From positions 3,840,501-3,904,500 of the forward strand of contig NZ_CP088149.1 in assembly GCF_002845275.2 (NCBI RefSeq): a stretch of 64,000 nucleotides of DNA. The letters run 5' to 3'. Origin of the DNA: Pseudomonas sp. S06B 330 (GTDB lineage: Bacteria; Pseudomonadota; Gammaproteobacteria; Pseudomonadales; Pseudomonadaceae). The notes beneath the pieces were generated by a model. The model was not told the origin of the DNA and searched no databases. It worked only from the letters and a program-made list of their open reading frames with translations. A program made the translations under genes and the position numbers. Shown here piece after piece: positions 4,043 to 12,572 of this stretch (position 1 is its first letter; the number at the start of each line of letters is the position of its first letter).

Positions 4043-4114
4043 ACAGATCAGCGACTGTGCTTCGTCTGATAGTTGCGACGTCTGATTCCCGCTCACAGTC
4101 CCGGAACCCCTTCG

Positions 4115-6199
4115 ATGCGCCCCACCCTACCCCGCTCCTCCCTCGCCGTGCTGATCTCCTGCGCCGCCTCAGTCCAGGCCAACGAAGGCATTGAACTTGG
4201 CCAAGTGTTGATCCAGGAACAGGAGCAGAGCGAACTGCAAGACGCCCGTGAACGCCTGAATCAGGTACCAGGCGCCAGCAACCTGATTGACATGCAACGG
4301 GTGGAGCAAGGTCGGGTCGCCAGCAACCAGGACGTACTGGCCTACCAGCCGGGCGTATTCGCCCAGTCCGCCGGCAACGACGGCATCAAGTTGTCGATCC
4401 GTGGCTCTGGCATCAACCGCGCACCGGGCAGCCACGGTTCTGGCGTGTACACAATGTTCGACGGTCTGCCGCTGACCGGTCCGGGCGGCACGCCTTATGA
4501 GTTGTTCGAACCGTTGTGGCTAAGCCGTGCCGAAGTCCTACGCGGCGCCAACGGTTTCGACCGCGGCGCTCTGGCCCTGGGTGGCGCCATTGATTACATC
4601 ACCCACACCGGTTACGACGCCGCGCCTTTGCAAGTTCGCTATGAAGTGGGCAGCCGCGGCTATGCCAAGCGCCAGATCAGTTCGGGCCAGGTCTTGGGTG
4701 ACCTGGACTACTACGTGGCCCTGACTGACGCTGAGTACGATGGCTATCAGGAGCACAGCAGTGGCAGCAGCAAGGGGATTGCCGCCAACGTCGGTTACCG
4801 TTTCAATCCGAATCTGGAAACGCGTTTCTACCTGCGCTATAGGGAAACCGAGAACGACCTGGCTGGGCGCCTGACCAAAGCGCAAATCAAACATGATCCG
4901 CGTGCGGCCAATCCGCTCTACCTGAGTCGCGATGCCAGCCGTCCGCAACCGGGCAGTACCTGGGTAGGCAACAAGACCACGTTTTTCCTTGATGATGATT
5001 CACGTCTGGAGGCCGGGCTGGTCTACCACGACTACCCGATGGACCTACGCGAAGGTGCTAACCGTTTGAAAGTCGCTTACAGCGACGTCAGCGGCACCTT
5101 GAACTACTTGCGTCGTGACACGCTGTTCGGCCACGAGAGCAAAACCACTGTTGGCTGGCGCACCACAAAGCACTTGCCCAACAGTGGTGCGTCCGAATTT
5201 GTCCGGGTATCGGAAAACAGCAATGGCAACCTGCCCGTAGGCACCCGCACCCGCGACTTCAGCTACCAAGGTTCCGACAGCGTTGTGCATGTTGGCAATG
5301 ACCTTGAGTTGGTGCCGAATCTGTGGCTGACCAGCGGCCTGGCAATGATCTACACCCGTCGCGAAAGTGCCGTGACCTACCCGGAAAACGGCGGCAAGGT
5401 CAGCCAACATGACTGGGACTACGCTCCACGCCTGGGTTTACGCTATGACCTGAACCCAAGCCTGCAACTGTACGGCAACCTTAGCCGCTCCGTTGAACCG
5501 CCCCACCCCTGGGCGTTGATCTGGAGCTCGCCGCGGGTCAATGGCCAGCAGATCCAGCCCATCGAAATGCAAAACCAGACCGCCACAACCCTGGAACTGG
5601 GTGCTCGCGGTGAGGCGCAGATCGGGCGCTGGGACCTGGCCTGGTATTACTCGGACGTGCGCCACGAGTTGCTGGCAGTGGAGATCGTGTCGGGCCTGCC
5701 CGCCGCCGAATTCAACGCCAGCCCCACCGTCCATCAAGGCGTAGAAGCTGGCCTCGACAGCCTGCTCTGGCAACGTGCCGACGTCGGCAAGCTGTCGCTG
5801 CGCCAGGCCTACACCTTCAGTGACTTCCACTACCGTGATGACGATACCTTTGGCGACAATCGCCTGCCCGGTATCCCGATGCACTACTACCAGGCCGAGC
5901 TGCGCTTTGACCTGCCCAGCGGTTTGTATGCCGGGATCAATACGCAGATGGCGTCCAAGGTCCAGGTCGATTATGCCAACAGCTATCCGACAGATGCCTA
6001 TGCCCTTCTTGGCGCAACCTTGGGCTACAACTCGCCGAAACAAGACTGGCAGACCTGGCTGGATCTACGCAACCTGACCAACAAGCGTTATGCCGCCACG
6101 GTAACACCAGGCTACAACGACAATGGCAAGGACATTGCCCACTCGACCCCAGGCGAAGGCTTTGGCGTCTACGCTGGCGTGTCCTACAGTTTCCGCTAA
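4115..6199 (+). CDS. TonB-dependent outer membrane receptor
   Basis: A TonB-dependent receptor of 694 residues that would import a chelated metal or another scarce substrate across the outer membrane. The frame is open from 4073, but the ATG at 4115 gives a proper signal peptide (MRPTLPRSSLAVLISCAASVQA), so I prefer it. Seen: a plug domain (about residues 35-150, with VLAYQPGVFAQ and LSIRGSGINR) and a 22-strand-type barrel ending in an aromatic residue (SYSFR), as expected for outer membrane assembly. There is no N-terminal STN signalling domain, so it is not a FecI/FecR-type transducer. No transport or regulator gene adjoins it, and the substrate is unknown. Confidence 0.88.
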   Translation: MRPTLPRSSLAVLISCAASVQANEGIELGQVLIQEQEQSELQDARERLNQVPGASNLIDMQRVEQGRVASNQDVLAYQPGVFAQSAGNDGIKLSIRGSGINRAPGSHGSGVYTMFDGLPLTGPGGTPYELFEPLWLSRAEVLRGANGFDRGALALGGAIDYITHTGYDAAPLQVRYEVGSRGYAKRQISSGQVLGDLDYYVALTDAEYDGYQEHSSGSSKGIAANVGYRFNPNLETRFYLRYRETENDLAGRLTKAQIKHDPRAANPLYLSRDASRPQPGSTWVGNKTTFFLDDDSRLEAGLVYHDYPMDLREGANRLKVAYSDVSGTLNYLRRDTLFGHESKTTVGWRTTKHLPNSGASEFVRVSENSNGNLPVGTRTRDFSYQGSDSVVHVGNDLELVPNLWLTSGLAMIYTRRESAVTYPENGGKVSQHDWDYAPRLGLRYDLNPSLQLYGNLSRSVEPPHPWALIWSSPRVNGQQIQPIEMQNQTATTLELGARGEAQIGRWDLAWYYSDVRHELLAVEIVSGLPAAEFNASPTVHQGVEAGLDSLLWQRADVGKLSLRQAYTFSDFHYRDDDTFGDNRLPGIPMHYYQAELRFDLPSGLYAGINTQMASKVQVDYANSYPTDAYALLGATLGYNSPKQDWQTWLDLRNLTNKRYAATVTPGYNDNGKDIAHSTPGEGFGVYAGVSYSFR

Positions 6200-7260
6200 C
6201 TGGGCAGTTGCACCTGAGGTTTAGTCGCGACGAAGATCGCCCAGCTGGAGATAAACAGTGCGGCGATCAGCGGTCCGATGACGAAGCCGTTAATACCGAA
6301 TACGGCCAGGCCACCCAGGGTTGAGACCAGAACCAGGTAATCCGGCATTTTGGTGTCCTTGCCCACCAGGATCGGCCGCAACACATTGTCCACCAGACCA
6401 ATCACGAAGACACCGTACAGCGCCAGCACTACACCTTGCCAGAATGAACCGGTAGCGACGAAGTACACTGCCACCGGTGCCCAGACAATGCCGGCGCCCA
6501 CTGCCGGCAGCAATGATAGAAAGGCCATCAGCACGCCCCAGACCAGTGGGCTGGGTATGTCCAGAACCCAGAAGATAACGCCTCCCAAGGCCCCCTGGGT
6601 CACGGCCACCAGCAGGTTGCCCTTCACGGTGGCCCGTACCACACGGTTAAACTTCAATTGCAGGCGGCGCTTCTGCTGCTCGGCCAGTGGCACCGCCGCG
6701 CGGATCTTGCGCACCAGTTCCGCGCCGTCGCGCAAAAAGAAATACAACAAATAGAGCATGACGCCGAAACTCACCAGAAATTCGAACGTACCCTGGCCAA
6801 AACTGAACGCCTGGCCGGCGAAGAACTGGCTGCCTTGCATCGCGCCTTTGGTAATTTTGTCGCGCATACCCTCCAGATCGCCCATACCCATGCGCTCAAG
6901 ACCATTCTGGGCGTAAGGCGGGAGCATGGCCTGGAAGCGCTCAATGTAACCGGCGATATCCAGCTGGCCGCTTTCAATGTTTTTGTATAACGCCGCACCT
7001 TCCTGGACCAGCAGGGTACTGATGACGATCATCGGCAAGATAGCGATCAACAGACACACCAGCAAGGTCAGGCCGGCCGCCAGGTTACGCCGCCAGCCCA
7101 TGCGCGGCAGCAGCCGTCGCTGTAAAGGCGCAAAGAGGATGCCGAGAATCACCGCCCAGAACACCGCGCCGTAGAACGGCAGCAAGATCCAGATAAAGGC
7201 AATGGTCACCAAGGCCAGAAACAGGTGCAGGGCCTTGTGCTGCAGGGCGGTTTCGTTCAT
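6196..7260 (-). CDS. AI-2E / PerM-family permease
   Basis: A polytopic membrane protein of 354 residues in the AI-2E transporter (PerM, PF01594-type) family, whose members export small molecules or act as Na+/H+ antiporters; the substrate here is unknown. Seen: N-terminal helices (FLALVTIAFIWILLPFYGAVFWAVILGILFA), a central hydrophilic portion, and the conserved C-terminal blocks GVVLALYGVFVIGLVDNVLRP and STLGGLAVFGINGFVIGPL. The frame is open to 7329, but the ATG at 7260 has a GGAG ribosome site and gives the family's usual start. Its stop overlaps that of the convergent receptor gene by 4 bases. Confidence 0.88.
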   Translation of the reverse strand: MNETALQHKALHLFLALVTIAFIWILLPFYGAVFWAVILGILFAPLQRRLLPRMGWRRNLAAGLTLLVCLLIAILPMIVISTLLVQEGAALYKNIESGQLDIAGYIERFQAMLPPYAQNGLERMGMGDLEGMRDKITKGAMQGSQFFAGQAFSFGQGTFEFLVSFGVMLYLLYFFLRDGAELVRKIRAAVPLAEQQKRRLQLKFNRVVRATVKGNLLVAVTQGALGGVIFWVLDIPSPLVWGVLMAFLSLLPAVGAGIVWAPVAVYFVATGSFWQGVVLALYGVFVIGLVDNVLRPILVGKDTKMPDYLVLVSTLGGLAVFGINGFVIGPLIAALFISSWAIFVATKPQVQLPS

Positions 7261-7347
7261 GTGCGCTCCGTTGCTGTTCACAACGTTAGTGCACGCCAGC
7301 GTGGTAAAAGTGCCGTTGCGCCGAAACAATCCTCCTCTGGCCGGGCA

Positions 7348-7848
7348 TCAAGCCCCAGCATGCCAATTCTGAGCCTCTAGCCCCGCCAGCAAATCGCTCT
7401 CCCAGTAAAACAGCGCGTTCAGTTCTATTTGCACATAGTCTGAATCATCGTCGCAGTCTCTCTGAGCATAATTCCAGCTGGTCAGTGACTGTCCGTAACA
7501 CTCGTCGCTGCCTGGTTGGGGCGCGTTATACCAGGCCCCCTGGGCAATCGACGTGCTCCAGCTGATCGCTCCAGGCAGTTGCGAACCGCCATCGTGCTCA
7601 CTACCGTTGTGCGCGGTAGGTTGGGGGGGCATTGTGTGCGCGGCGGATGCCAAAGGAATGACTTGGCTTGAGAACGAGAACGTGCAGTTGCTGGCCCCCG
7701 CCAGGGTTTGCCCTTTCCAGTTCCAGGAGTAAGTGGTATCCACTCCGGTGCTTTCATTCAAGGTGTAATGGGCTTGGAAGTTTGCACGAGAGTCGGTGGG
7801 TCGATTGACGGTGATGGACCACTGCCCATGCGATAAAGTCAAAGTCAT
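7348..7848 (-). CDS. Hypothetical protein downstream of the FNR paralogue
   Basis: A protein of 166 residues that I do not recognise. Start chosen at 7848 (MTLTLSHGQWSITVNRP), with an AAGG site 6-9 bases upstream; the frame continues to 7923 only by running back into the preceding gene. No signal peptide or membrane helix is visible. It is rich in Ser, Thr, Trp and Asn, has short amphipathic strands (predicted beta-rich) and contains three Cys (about residues 59, 116 and 130), the last beside an acidic run RDCDDDSDYVQ. It begins 20 bases after the stop of the ANR-type regulator on the same strand, so the two are probably co-transcribed. It could be a lectin-like or aegerolysin-like beta protein, but this is a guess. 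Confidence 0.7.
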   Translation of the reverse strand: MTLTLSHGQWSITVNRPTDSRANFQAHYTLNESTGVDTTYSWNWKGQTLAGASNCTFSFSSQVIPLASAAHTMPPQPTAHNGSEHDGGSQLPGAISWSTSIAQGAWYNAPQPGSDECYGQSLTSWNYAQRDCDDDSDYVQIELNALFYWESDLLAGLEAQNWHAGA

Positions 7849-7867: not shown

Positions 7868-8578
7868 CTAGTTAAACATCTGCACGGGGTCAATAATGCG
7901 TACTTCCTTGCCTTCAACTTCAATCAAGCCGTTTTGCTGAAGACGGGTGAACACTCGGGATACGGTCTCTCCCGCCAACCCCAAGTAGTTGCCGATGTCG
8001 TTGCGAGAAATGCTCAAGTGCAGTTGATTGGCGGAATAGCCTAAGGCGCTGAAGCGTTCTGCCAGGTCAACCAGCAAGCTGGCGACCCGCGGATCGGCCG
8101 CTTTTTTCGTCAGCAACCGAGTCATTTGCTGGGTATTGCGAATCTCGCGGCTCATCGCCCGAATCAGATGGCGGCGGATCTTGGGCAAGCGAATCAACTG
8201 CGCATCCAGCGCGTCGAAAGGCAACTCGCAGACCTCGCTGTTGTCTAGCGCCCGAACCGAAATCGGATAGGTGGCCGCGCCCATCCCCGAGAGGCCAATC
8301 AGTTCACCGGGCAGATGCAGACCCAGAATCTGTTCTTCGCCGTCTTTGCTCACGCTAAAGGACTTCAACGCGCCGGAACGTATCACGTAAATGGCATTGA
8401 AACTGTCGCCCTGACGAAACAGAAATTCGTCCTTTTTCACTTGGCGACCGTGTTTGACGATGTCATCAAGCAGGTCGATTTCTTCGTAGCTCACTGAACC
8501 AGGCAGACATAGCAGCGCAAGGCTGCAGGTCTTGCAATGCATCTGGCTGTCAGCGTGCAGCTTTACCGAGTCGAGCAT
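7868..8578 (-). CDS. ANR/FNR-family oxygen-responsive transcription regulator (paralogue)
   Basis: A CRP/FNR-superfamily regulator of 236 residues. Seen: the N-terminal cysteine cluster HCKTCSLALLC (Cys15, Cys18, Cys24) plus Cys117 in NSEVCELPF, the four ligands of the oxygen-labile [4Fe-4S] cluster in FNR; a cyclic-nucleotide-binding-like fold; and the recognition helix GNYLGLAGETVSRVF with the E..SR residues that read TTGAT-N4-ATCAA. The frame is open to 8647, but the ATG at 8578 has an AAGGA site and matches ANR length. ANR itself usually lies beside hemN, so this is more likely one of the extra ANR paralogues known from P. putida. It is divergent from trhP and followed by a small unknown gene. 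Confidence 0.9.
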   Translation of the reverse strand: MLDSVKLHADSQMHCKTCSLALLCLPGSVSYEEIDLLDDIVKHGRQVKKDEFLFRQGDSFNAIYVIRSGALKSFSVSKDGEEQILGLHLPGELIGLSGMGAATYPISVRALDNSEVCELPFDALDAQLIRLPKIRRHLIRAMSREIRNTQQMTRLLTKKAADPRVASLLVDLAERFSALGYSANQLHLSISRNDIGNYLGLAGETVSRVFTRLQQNGLIEVEGKEVRIIDPVQMFN

Positions 8579-8667
8579 GTAGAGGTCCTTACGAAATGAC
8601 ACGATGCGTGCCTGAGCCTTAGCAATCAGGCGCAGCTTACGAGCCATTCAATATTCCCCCGGGCCCG

Positions 8668-8685
8668 ATTGAGATGCTTCTCAAT
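8668..8685. promoter_or_regulatory. Perfect 18-bp palindrome upstream of the FNR paralogue
   Basis: ATTGAGATGCTTCTCAAT is a perfect inverted repeat (7-4-7), 90 bases upstream of the regulator's start. The half-sites resemble neither the 14-bp FNR box nor a good Fur box. It is a likely operator for an unidentified factor. Confidence 0.45.
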
Positions 8686-8773
8686 AATCGTCATTTAGTA
8701 TCAAGCCATTGAATTTAATGAATAAATTCAAAAAAGTGTCAGCCGATACAACAACACCATCCGCGCTGGGCTA

Positions 8774-8787
8774 TTGACCCACGTCAA
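8774..8787. promoter_or_regulatory. ANR/FNR box at class II position of trhP
   Basis: TTGACCCACGTCAA is a perfect dyad of the form TTGAY-N4-RTCAA, the ANR/FNR recognition pattern. Its centre (8780.5) is exactly 41.5 bases upstream of a start site predicted at about 8822 from a TAGCAT hexamer at 8810-8815, the geometry of FNR class II activation. The trhP ATG is at 8841. It could also affect the divergent regulator gene. Confidence 0.75.
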
Positions 8788-8840
8788 TTAGCCGATGGGC
8801 CTGAACCGGTAGCATCCGCGCCTTTTAATCCGGCCCGATC

Positions 8841-10157
8841 ATGACTCCGCTTGCCAAACCTGAACTGCTCGCCCCTGCCGGCACCCTGAAAAACATGCGC
8901 TACGCCTTCGCCTACGGCGCCGATGCGGTGTATGCCGGCCAGCCTCGCTACAGCCTGCGGGTGCGCAATAACGAGTTCGACCACGCCAACCTGGCTCTCG
9001 GCATCAAGGAAGCCCAGGCGCAAGGCAAGCGCTTTTACGTCGTGGTCAACATTGCTCCGCATAACGCCAAGCTGAAAACCTTCCTCAAAGATCTGGCGCC
9101 GGTCATTGAGATGGCTCCGGATGCGTTGATCATGTCCGACCCTGGCTTGATCATGCTGGTTCGCCAGCATTTCCCGCAGATGCCGATTCACCTGTCGGTA
9201 CAGGCCAATACCGTGAACTGGGCCAGCGTCGAATTCTGGCGCAGTCAGGGGCTGACGCGGGTGATCCTGTCCCGCGAGCTGTCGCTGGAAGAGATTGAGG
9301 AAATCCGCCAGCAGGTGCCAACAATGGAGTTGGAGGTGTTCGTTCACGGCGCGCTGTGCATGGCCTACTCCGGTCGTTGCCTGCTGTCGGGCTACCTCAA
9401 CCGCCGCGATGCCAACCAGGGCAGTTGCACCAATGCCTGCCGCTGGAAGTACAGCGCCACCGCAGCGACGGAAGATGTCAGCGGCGATATCGTGCGCGAA
9501 GTACAGCCGACCCTGGGTGTTGGCGCCCCCACTGAACAGGTATTCCTGCTCCAGGAGAGCAACCGTCCGGATGAAGACATGCCAGCGTTCGAGGACGAAC
9601 ACGGCACCTACATCATGAACGCCAAGGACCTGCGTGCCGTTCAACACGTCGAACGGCTGACACAAATGGGGGTGCATTCGCTGAAAATCGAAGGCCGGAC
9701 CAAGTCGCACTTTTACTGTGCACGCACCACCCAGGCGTATCGCCAGGCCATTGATGATGCCGTGGCCGGACGTGAGTTTGACCGCAGCCTGATGCTCAAC
9801 CTCGAGTCATTGGCCCAGCGCGGTTACACCGAAGGCTTCCTGCGCCGCCATGTGCATGATGAATATCAAAACTATCAGCGCGGCAATTCGGTGTCTGATC
9901 GTCAGCAGTTTGTGGGCGAGCTGACCGGTGAACGTGTTGATGGTCTGGCCGAAGTTAAGGTCAAAAATCGCTTCGTCCTGGGCGATCACCTGGAACTGAT
10001 GACCCCGCGTGGCAACTATCACTTCGACCTGCACCAGTTACGTGATCGTCAGGGTGCAGCAATCGAAGTGGCACCGGGGGATGGACATACGGTGTACCTG
10101 CCGATTCCTGAGCAGGTGGATCTGGCGTTTGGCCTGTTGTTACGGGAGTTAGTGTAA
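8841..10157 (+). CDS. trhP: tRNA 5-hydroxyuridine modification protein TrhP (YegQ, U32 family)
   Basis: A protein of 438 residues very close to E. coli YegQ/TrhP along its whole length (it shares KPELLAPAGTLKNMRYAFAY). TrhP carries out the prephenate-dependent, oxygen-independent hydroxylation of U34 in certain tRNAs, the step leading to cmo5U. Seen: the U32 barrel, the cysteines Cys173, Cys180, Cys196 and Cys200 in the CMAYSGRC...GSCTNAC region that fit an Fe-S site, and the C-terminal small domain. There is no clear Shine-Dalgarno before the ATG at 8841; the predicted leader is only about 19 bases. An ANR box at 8774 suggests induction at low oxygen. Older annotations call it a U32 peptidase. 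Confidence 0.92.
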   Translation: MTPLAKPELLAPAGTLKNMRYAFAYGADAVYAGQPRYSLRVRNNEFDHANLALGIKEAQAQGKRFYVVVNIAPHNAKLKTFLKDLAPVIEMAPDALIMSDPGLIMLVRQHFPQMPIHLSVQANTVNWASVEFWRSQGLTRVILSRELSLEEIEEIRQQVPTMELEVFVHGALCMAYSGRCLLSGYLNRRDANQGSCTNACRWKYSATAATEDVSGDIVREVQPTLGVGAPTEQVFLLQESNRPDEDMPAFEDEHGTYIMNAKDLRAVQHVERLTQMGVHSLKIEGRTKSHFYCARTTQAYRQAIDDAVAGREFDRSLMLNLESLAQRGYTEGFLRRHVHDEYQNYQRGNSVSDRQQFVGELTGERVDGLAEVKVKNRFVLGDHLELMTPRGNYHFDLHQLRDRQGAAIEVAPGDGHTVYLPIPEQVDLAFGLLLRELV

Positions 10158-10259: not shown

Positions 10260-12572
10260 TCAAGGCAGGGAGGCTGCTACCGCCGTTGTGTCCGCTTCAC
10301 GAATTACCTGCAGTCGATACTGCGGATCAGCCTTGATCTGCGCCTCAGTAAATGGAATCTGGTGCCATTTTTTGGCCGAGAAGGCGCGGGTCTGGTCACT
10401 GGCGTGCGGCGACCCTGCTTCGCTGGACTCTGAAAAAGCGAGCAGCCCCAAAGCCTGCGGTCCCTCATTATCAAAGGTGACCAGCTGTAAGTAACTGGTG
10501 CCACTGACAACGAGACGCTTGCCCTGACCGGTCGGCACGCTTTGGATGGCATTGTAAACGCCAAGACGGGCAGGTCCGCCATGAATCGGCGTGCCGTCAG
10601 CGGCTTGCTGAATCTGTCCCCAGCGTACATCGGGGCTCAGCTTGGCCTGTTGCACCTGCGCCAGTGAGGCCAAGACCGCTTGGTTCAAGGCGTCTGCCAC
10701 CTCGACACGCTCGACGGCCAAGCCACTCGGGGTGTGCTGAGGGTCAGCCGGATCAAAAGCCACTCGCCAGATATCCGGACGCTCAAGCAAGCGCTGCAGG
10801 ATATTCTGGAAATGTACCAGGCCTAGGCCACTGTCCAGATCGGCGCGCAGGTTCCAGGCTTTCAAACTGCTGCACAGCCCGACAATCTGTACATCCGCCT
10901 GCTTGCCACACCAATGCAATACATCCGGCATCAACAGTTCGGCCAGATAAACCTGGTTGTCCATCACCATCTGCTGCAGGTCGGCACCGCTGAGCTTGCC
11001 GTCGCGACTCAGACGTTGCAGGGCAAAGCGGCTACGTGGGCCCAGGGGCTGGTCCTCGCGACTGACCAACGGCGAAAAACCACGCAACGGTTGCGCCGGG
11101 TTGACCATCCAGGCGGAGTCATTGGAGTGCTGGATATAATCCTTTCGGCTCAGGCTCGGTTGCAGTTGTGTGGGGAAAATGCCTGGCTGCGCGGCCCGCG
11201 GATCGACCTTCCAGTTGCAGGCGCTGCGCGAACCGTCGAGCACAATCAACTCCTGACCGGCGGCTGGATCGCTGCACTTGGCCAGCAAAGCAGCGTCGAC
11301 AAAGGGCACCACAGACTGATTCAGATATAACGTCTGGCCCTTGGCATCCACCGCCAGGGTGTTAACCCAGGGTATCCCTTGCAGGCGCTGCACCGAGTCT
11401 TGCATGGCCTTGAGGCTGTCAGCCTGGTTCATGCTGTACCACTGCTGCAGAACGCGGGTGTTATCCAGGTTGGCATCGCGCAAGCTGTAGGCGTATTGCT
11501 TGTTCCAGTCCAGGCGCCCTGGCCACTGGACCACCGGGCCGAATACCGAGCTGTAGACGTCGCGTTTGACCGGCGTAAGCGTGCCGTCCTTTCCCTTGAC
11601 CATCACCGTCAACGGTTGGCGGCTCATGGCCTGTGACTTGCCATCAAGCAGATAACGGGTCGAGTCCTTGGGGTCGAGTTCCAACCGATACAAGGTGAAG
11701 TGCTTGGAGGTATCTACCGTATGGGTCCAGGCCAGGTGGCGGTTGAAACCGATGTTGATCAATGGCAGTCCTGGCAAGGCAGCGCCCATGACATCCAGCT
11801 TGCCCGGCAGCGTCAGTTGCATCTGATAAAAACGCATGCCGCCTGCCCAGGGAAAGTGTGGATTCGCCAGTAACATGCCATAACCGGTGGCGGAGCGTTC
11901 GCTGCCCACCGCCACCGCATTGCTGCCTCGTTCGAGGGCAAAATTGTCCTGACGTGCCTGCGCCATACTCATGTCCAGGTGCAACCCTGCCACAGCGTTG
12001 GGTGGTGTGGCACCCGCCAACGCTTCAGCAAACTGCCCGACGCCGCCTTCGACCAGCAAGCGCCGGGTCAGCTTGATCAGGTCAAGCGTGGTAATCGGCC
12101 GCAGCCACTGGGCTTGCAAACACTGCGCCCCCTGCCCCTGAGCCAGGCGCTCGGCCAGCGCACGGTTGTAACCTTTGGCATAACCTTCGAGCAATGCGCG
12201 CACCTGCGGCGGCTGTGCCTGCCAGAAGCCGAACACCGCTGCAGGCGTATTGAGCCAGCTGAAGAACAGGTCGCTGGCAAGGTTCTCACGCTGCTCGAAT
12301 GTGACCTGCTCAGGCCCGAAGTAACGTGAACGCTCGGCATTGACGGTGACGACTTCGTTGGCCAACAGGCACAGGTTGTCCTGGCCATAGGCATAACCGA
12401 TTCCGTATCCCAACCCCTGTTCATCCCTGGCCAGGATGTGCGGTACACCAAAACTGCTGCGGCGGATCTCAGCGCTGGCATCACCCTGGGCGACACGAGC
12501 CTGGGCCGCGCCGTTGAGCACGACGAGCAGTCCGGCCAGACAGACGCTTGCCAAAGGACGGGATTTGATCAC
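10260..12572 (-). CDS. pvdQ: Acyl-homoserine-lactone / pyoverdine-precursor acylase PvdQ
   Basis: A periplasmic Ntn-hydrolase of 770 residues, closely resembling P. aeruginosa PvdQ (762 residues) throughout. PvdQ removes the fatty acyl chain from the pyoverdine precursor and also cleaves long-chain acyl-homoserine lactones. Seen: a signal peptide ending near QARVAQ, an alpha chain, the spacer, and the autocatalytic Gly216-Ser217-Asn218 (ERGSNAVAVGS), where Ser217 becomes the N-terminal nucleophile of the beta chain; also NPHFPW and the Asn of QHSNDSAW. The start is GTG at 12572 with an AGGAG site 5 bases before it. No pyoverdine synthesis genes adjoin it. A PvdS-like promoter candidate lies upstream. 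QuiP-type acylases are related, but the match is closer to PvdQ. Confidence 0.9.
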   Translation of the reverse strand: MIKSRPLASVCLAGLLVVLNGAAQARVAQGDASAEIRRSSFGVPHILARDEQGLGYGIGYAYGQDNLCLLANEVVTVNAERSRYFGPEQVTFEQRENLASDLFFSWLNTPAAVFGFWQAQPPQVRALLEGYAKGYNRALAERLAQGQGAQCLQAQWLRPITTLDLIKLTRRLLVEGGVGQFAEALAGATPPNAVAGLHLDMSMAQARQDNFALERGSNAVAVGSERSATGYGMLLANPHFPWAGGMRFYQMQLTLPGKLDVMGAALPGLPLINIGFNRHLAWTHTVDTSKHFTLYRLELDPKDSTRYLLDGKSQAMSRQPLTVMVKGKDGTLTPVKRDVYSSVFGPVVQWPGRLDWNKQYAYSLRDANLDNTRVLQQWYSMNQADSLKAMQDSVQRLQGIPWVNTLAVDAKGQTLYLNQSVVPFVDAALLAKCSDPAAGQELIVLDGSRSACNWKVDPRAAQPGIFPTQLQPSLSRKDYIQHSNDSAWMVNPAQPLRGFSPLVSREDQPLGPRSRFALQRLSRDGKLSGADLQQMVMDNQVYLAELLMPDVLHWCGKQADVQIVGLCSSLKAWNLRADLDSGLGLVHFQNILQRLLERPDIWRVAFDPADPQHTPSGLAVERVEVADALNQAVLASLAQVQQAKLSPDVRWGQIQQAADGTPIHGGPARLGVYNAIQSVPTGQGKRLVVSGTSYLQLVTFDNEGPQALGLLAFSESSEAGSPHASDQTRAFSAKKWHQIPFTEAQIKADPQYRLQVIREADTTAVAASLP

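Follow-up and report, generated by a model that had tools for sequence, protein, structure and literature searches.

Is trhP, the gene for a tRNA hydroxylase that works without O2, controlled by ANR, the low-oxygen regulator of Pseudomonas? This question is posed by the window analysed here, a stretch of 64,000 nt from Pseudomonas sp. S06B 330 (GCF_002845275.2, NZ_CP088149.1, positions 3,840,501-3,904,500, forward strand). The trhP gene (8841-10157, plus strand) encodes a prephenate-dependent tRNA U34 hydroxylase of 438 amino acids (NF011996; Peptidase_U32, Peptidase_U32_C). This identity, given in the preliminary description of the region, is borne out by the TrhP equivalog model NF011996, which the protein passes with 802 bits (cut-off 534), while its scores for UbiU (183; cut-off 440) and UbiV (55; cut-off 275) lie under their respective cut-offs. 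The TrhP enzyme of E. coli was reported to form ho5U34 from prephenate in an O2-free manner, whereas TrhO uses O2 as the oxygen donor, and this dual pathway was proposed to suit both aerobic and anaerobic life; FNR is absent from the main text of that report (PMC6599085).

We consider it the best explanation of our data, with a probability of about 0.86, that trhP is transcribed from a class II ANR-dependent sigma-70 promoter that raises its expression when oxygen falls, with TrhP backing up TrhO.

The promoter region of trhP

Upstream of trhP lies the ANR/FNR box TTGACCCACGTCAA (8774-8787, plus strand), a perfect dyad of the type TTGAC-N4-GTCAA that has no mismatch to the FNR-type consensus TTGAYN4RTCAA and is kept at a fixed spacing in relatives. 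It is followed, 22 nt further 3', by the -10 hexamer TAGCAT (8810-8815, plus strand). Judged by the -10 alone, trhP transcription is predicted to start at 8822 (plus strand), and given this start, the centre of the box (8780.5) is located at -41.5. The box and its class II geometry, both claimed in the preliminary description, consequently stand. Position 8822 is, however, an atypical start, and this counts against the class II reading: the bases 8820-8826 read GCCTTTT and provide no purine at exactly 8822, which instead forms the edge of a CTTTT tract (8822-8826) conserved in a footprint of 101 representative promoters. When 8400-9200 was scanned with a simple sigma-70 consensus, the trhP promoter was not reported, as is expected when an activator stands in for the -35 element.

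Taken by itself, the motif proves nothing. TTGAN6TCAA occurs a single time in the window, and shuffled sequences contain it 0.69 times on average; it is the conservation at fixed spacing described below that marks the box as real. In the complete genome of the strain, 39 TTGAYN4RTCAA sites are present versus 10 for the reversed pattern.

The composite of box, 22 nt and TAnnnT was found seven times in this genome, all occurrences being reported on the forward strand, and not once in the reversed control. Besides trhP, it is followed by hemN (591 bits; cut-off 325), by the gene for an anaerobic-type ribonucleoside triphosphate reductase (NF006126, 799 bits; cut-off 548), by a gene for a NarK-type transporter of the NarK family (213 bits, below the cut-off of 312), by the genes for a DUF3079 protein and an unassigned 147-aa protein, and, behind a double box, by a short ORF. 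With the NrdD model, the reductase reached 295 bits, below the cut-off of 326, its protein being shortened by the edge of the locus. Genes for anaerobic ribonucleotide reductases and NarK-type transporters are familiar ANR/FNR targets. The identical composite before hemN, the reductase gene and the NarK-type gene consequently makes the trhP layout one that is common to classic low-oxygen genes, hemN likewise being a familiar target of ANR (PMC6588701). Unlike these three genes, trhP was not found described as an ANR/FNR target. It counts against the ANR reading that TrhP, yegQ, U32, peptidase, protease and tRNA are all absent from the main text, supplement aside, of the study on the Anr core regulon (PMC6588701); the literature searches, supplements aside, brought up no report of ANR/FNR control of trhP (YegQ/U32), and the available text of PMC4505428, PMC6588701, PMC6599085, PMC6747719, PMC10470549 and PMC11742490 contains no such control.

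A related system is known from E. coli, where FNR was reported to activate ubiUV, an O2-independent U32 pair, via the site F1, 36 nt upstream of the start (PMC10470549). As at trhP, an FNR-type box stands there at roughly class II distance before the gene of an O2-independent hydroxylase of the U32 family (PMC10470549). The two systems differ in that UbiU and UbiV serve ubiquinone and not tRNA, and in that the regulator is FNR and not the ANR of Pseudomonas; furthermore, trhP of E. coli itself lacks such a box. The genome of strain S06B 330 also carries an ANR box (G000:C1:2523780-2523793) upstream of a UbiU-sized U32 homologue (2523907-2524782), and among the matches listed, none lies within 26 kb of a larger U32 homologue at 2053670.

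Conservation of the arrangement and its reach

Conservation of the box before trhP in other pseudomonads had been set beforehand as a check on the preliminary description, and the box passed it. In our sample of 199 Pseudomonas genomes, the one under study included, TrhP is present in 162 by hand count, while nine genomes have no match and 28 have weak U32 matches alone. A box with at most one mismatch precedes trhP in 146 of these 162 genomes and is followed by TAnnnT exactly 22 nt further on in 140 of them; 16 lack a box of this quality. The main set comprised 150 of the 162 genomes (L007-L036 and L117-L236). Within the 160 nt preceding the anchor, their best-matching box upstream of trhP had no mismatch in 39, one in 100, and two in 11 cases. 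Among the 139 upstream regions with at most one mismatch, TAnnnT follows at exactly 22 nt in 133 and at 21 nt in six. Of the remaining 12 trhP upstream regions, the most divergent ones, seven stay within one mismatch and have the 22-nt spacing; two further ones keep the 22 nt but have two to three mismatches, and three are without such a site. The best 80 of 595 confirmed named trhP loci yielded 70 with no more than one mismatch in the box, 68 of them with the 22-nt spacing. Some named loci recur among those taken from the genome sample, so that the 230 regions include 211 distinct ones; 191 of these 211 have at most one mismatch, and 183 of the 191 have the 22-nt spacing.

In a control window located 600-760 nt upstream, a box with at most one mismatch was seen in 1 of the 230 regions and the composite in none, and one-mismatch boxes occurred in 0.6% of mononucleotide shuffles. 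With the fixed spacing found in 140 of 162 genomes versus 0 of 230 control regions, an origin of the box by chance is ruled out, and we assign it practically no weight. An FNR-type box, a 22-nt spacing to the -10 and selection in the relatives, three features of a class II promoter, are thus all present at trhP, and its promoter is most likely an ANR-dependent one of this class.

For the footprint, regions had to carry TA at the -10 and no more than two mismatches in the box; 214 qualified, and 101 representatives less than 80% identical to each other were retained from these. Box and -10 stand out in it, and the rest of the promoter is near-random. Because the TA of the -10 and some letters of the box were imposed by this selection, these columns are no evidence, and we therefore point to those positions that were not selected: the central CAG of the box (C in 84, A in 85 and G in 89 of the 101 representatives), the TA after the box (95 and 81 of 101) and the T that ends the -10 (101 of 101). 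Among the 101 representatives, position 2 of the box is A more often than T (53 versus 36), and in about half of them the upstream half-site reads TAGAY in place of TTGAY, so that many loci offer a weaker match to ANR.

In P. putida, ANR and its paralogues PP_3233 and PP_3287 were reported to bind the FNR consensus site anaerobically, and all three were assayed on the class II promoter FF-41.5, O2 inhibiting their activity (PMC4505428). One might argue that Dnr or another FNR-type protein binds the site upstream of trhP, or that ANR acts from it as a repressor. The consensus sequences of Anr and Dnr from P. aeruginosa are indeed reported to be indistinguishable (PMC6588701), and the genome of strain S06B 330 contains a third, cysteine-bearing FNR-type gene (L003; match at G000:C1:3018372). 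We nevertheless regard this alternative as quite improbable, as every one of the 199 genomes has a strong ANR-like match, in keeping with a box found across the genus. Moreover, FNR-family proteins placed at -41.5 usually activate transcription, and this speaks against repression. For a class II ANR promoter, the chain of events would be as follows: when oxygen falls, ANR would retain its [4Fe-4S] cluster and dimerise, the dimer would bind at 8774-8787 and contact RNA polymerase at the -10 (8810-8815), and this contact would increase trhP transcription. On these grounds, low oxygen very probably turns trhP on.

The arrangement is restricted to the Pseudomonas lineage. Outside the family, the box that matched best no more than 300 nt away from trhP was judged for the 29 best-scoring gammaproteobacterial loci (L268-L296), lower-scoring matches being left out, and for E. 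coli K-12, and in none of these 30 cases was a box found with TAnnnT at 18-27 nt. Boxes with at most one mismatch were present in 3 of the 29 loci, far upstream in L268 (an exact box) and L294, and at the start codon in L274. Conservation of the arrangement throughout the Gammaproteobacteria is consequently rejected (0 of the 29 best-scoring loci from other families, and E. coli). Within the family, 26 loci from other genera were evaluated, i.e., the best 30 minus the genome under study and three of the same genus, with about a dozen weaker trhP matches excluded. One of these (L424) has a one-mismatch box at 22 nt and seven (L429, L432, L434, L437, L438, L441 and L449) have a two-mismatch box at this distance, while 18 have neither; a box of at most one mismatch is missing from 25 of the 26. 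The named Stutzerimonas loci (L110-L115) have no box of this quality. The arrangement thus characterizes the Pseudomonas lineage, with a few neighbors perhaps sharing it.

The divergent regulator gene and the perM side

The preliminary description had pointed to an ANR-type regulator gene divergent from trhP and had hinted at its product as the controller of trhP. This gene (7868-8578, minus strand) does belong to the FNR/ANR family: its product reaches 241 bits with the Fnr subfamily model (cut-off 228), contains the motif C-x2-C-x5-C plus a fourth cysteine, and in an alignment with E. coli FNR has all four cluster cysteines and the E-x-x-S-R recognition motif. The open reading frame extends to an ATG at 8647, yet homology with ANR and other paralogues begins at the ATG at 8578, which is probably the true coding start. 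That the divergent gene is ANR itself is rejected; ANR is encoded elsewhere in the genome (G000:C1:4090256) and is 62% identical to the regulator of the window, which belongs to a long-branched clade of fast-diverging duplicates. The family assignment made earlier thus holds, and an equation with ANR does not.

The paralogue is found next to trhP in 4 of the 230 loci (the window, G015, G089 and P. arcuscaelestis). The copies are 70-72% identical versus 96-97% for the neighboring TrhP proteins, which means that the paralogue diverges much faster; the further matches, among those listed, are at most 64% identical. In the paralogue tree, the four copies form a single clade (100/100) with a long stem inside Pseudomonas ANR, their exact place being unsure owing to the long branches. 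All four have a Gly in place of the Val that ANR and E. coli FNR possess just before the recognition Glu. In the CRP/FNR family, the residue preceding this glutamate helps to set specificity, and the specificity of the paralogue may hence differ.

Could this paralogue, as a dedicated local regulator with a perhaps different O2 sensitivity, control trhP in the four-member clade? Its divergent position in all four loci, the kept cysteines and E-x-x-S-R motif, and its confinement to one firmly supported clade are in line with such a role, and so are the FNR paralogues of P. putida, which were reported to vary in their O2 sensitivity (PMC4505428). Like strain S06B 330, P. putida possesses more than one FNR protein with cysteines, PP_3233 and PP_3287 among them (PMC4505428); the window paralogue was seen next to trhP in only four loci. 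The altered residue beside the recognition Glu speaks against this role, as does the fact that the trhP box is kept at loci where the paralogue is not adjacent, an observation that makes ANR itself the likelier regulator. We therefore regard control of trhP by the paralogue as unlikely, and the earlier hint is not upheld, although paralogue and ANR may both bind the trhP box. An A+T-rich stretch (8682-8729, no strand assigned) between the paralogue gene and trhP is conserved in the alignment of the four paralogue loci and contains TTTGATATCAA-like dyads; it may be part of the promoter from which the paralogue itself is transcribed, or serve as an autoregulatory site. A 166-aa ORF (7348-7848, minus strand) without Pfam or NCBIfam match accompanies the paralogue in all four loci and, being 39-45% identical in the three relatives, diverges faster still. 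Elsewhere in the genome, two ANR boxes (G000:C1:3017747 and 3017867) lie about 0.5-0.6 kb upstream of the FNR-type match at 3018372.

The usual divergent neighbor of trhP is a perM-like gene for an AI-2E family transporter (6196-7260, minus strand, in the window). As the dyad is symmetric and perM so regularly adjoins it, the box could be there for the divergent gene, usually perM and here the paralogue, its closeness to trhP being incidental. This is very improbable in our view. The exact 22-nt spacing to a conserved -10 lies on the trhP side, and the sigma-70 scan of 8400-9200 reported no site on the minus strand, a weak argument given that it missed the trhP promoter too. The insert of the paralogue region has shifted perM away from trhP. 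On the perM side of the window, TTGCGCCGAAACAA (7316-7329, plus strand), with mismatches at 3 of 10 positions, is a probable decayed relic of the ancestral box; its flank AAAAGTGCCGTTG is shared with relatives. In both insert-bearing loci that were read, the perM-side box is decayed (three mismatches in the window, two in L037) and the trhP-side box is exact. Selection on the box consequently follows trhP. Also near the region are genes for a TonB-dependent receptor (4073-6199, plus strand) and a penicillin amidase family protein (10260-12572, minus strand).

TrhO and the proposed oxygen logic of U34 hydroxylation

The preliminary description had also put forward a switch of the hydroxylation route with oxygen. 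This idea gains from the distribution of trhO, which is present in 198 of the 199 genomes of the genus sample and yet, in all 86 of the 162 trhP-bearing genomes that were examined (two with less than 200 nt upstream), lacks an upstream box of one mismatch or fewer; the induction of trhP itself is the part that we infer. Taken together, a box-less TrhO, an O2-free TrhP and the UbiUV precedent lead to TrhP as the ANR-boosted low-oxygen partner of TrhO, and we consider this the best reading. At low oxygen, TrhP would thereby form ho5U34 from prephenate without O2 and back up the O2-dependent enzyme.

In some genomes without trhP, the picture is different. Exact ANR boxes precede trhO in 7 of 37 trhP-less versus 0 of 86 trhP-bearing genomes (Fisher p 1.4e-4; some of the genomes counted as trhP-less are incomplete, e.g., G080 with 86% completeness). 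This count suggests that ANR control may move to trhO where trhP is lost. The seven boxes (L311, L315, L481, L484, L491, L492 and L507) are located 33-45 nt before the trhO -10 TAGAAT, a spacing that is not class II. In G051 and G080, which are not counted among the seven, the trhO -10 lies 23-24 nt from a one-mismatch site. No trhO box was found in nine trhP-less genomes of other genera.

In a trhO gene tree of 78 of 138 genomes, those with the full gene in hand, all seven box-bearing genomes fall within a 16-row clade whose sole trhP-bearing member is G018. They again group together (14 rows, one trhP-bearing) in a second, quick tree made from the trhO upstream region with the box masked for all 123 genomes of the genus set. 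There, the trhP-bearing genomes G050 and G155 join G026 and G115, which the gene tree places inside the clade, so that the clade is not purely trhP-less. As all seven boxes are in one group, they may stem from one event followed by losses. Tree-based independent pairs (sign test p 0.5-1) do not support a link between trhO boxes and the loss of trhP. A broader idea, that oxygen control of U34 hydroxylation is a selected trait that hops between genes, acting on trhP, on trhO after trhP loss, and through the paralogue planted as a sensor with altered recognition, is possible but on balance doubtful.

If the trhO boxes act in the trhP-poor clade, an O2-dependent enzyme would be raised there when its substrate runs short. 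For the trhP-bearing majority, control by ANR would tie the low-oxygen regulator of Pseudomonas to the chemistry of tRNA decoding, and the dual TrhP/TrhO pathway would gain a candidate regulator. If so, the origin of ho5U34 would shift between prephenate and O2 with the oxygen level, and TrhP would join HemN, anaerobic ribonucleotide reductase and UbiUV as an O2-free substitute that is induced when oxygen is low.
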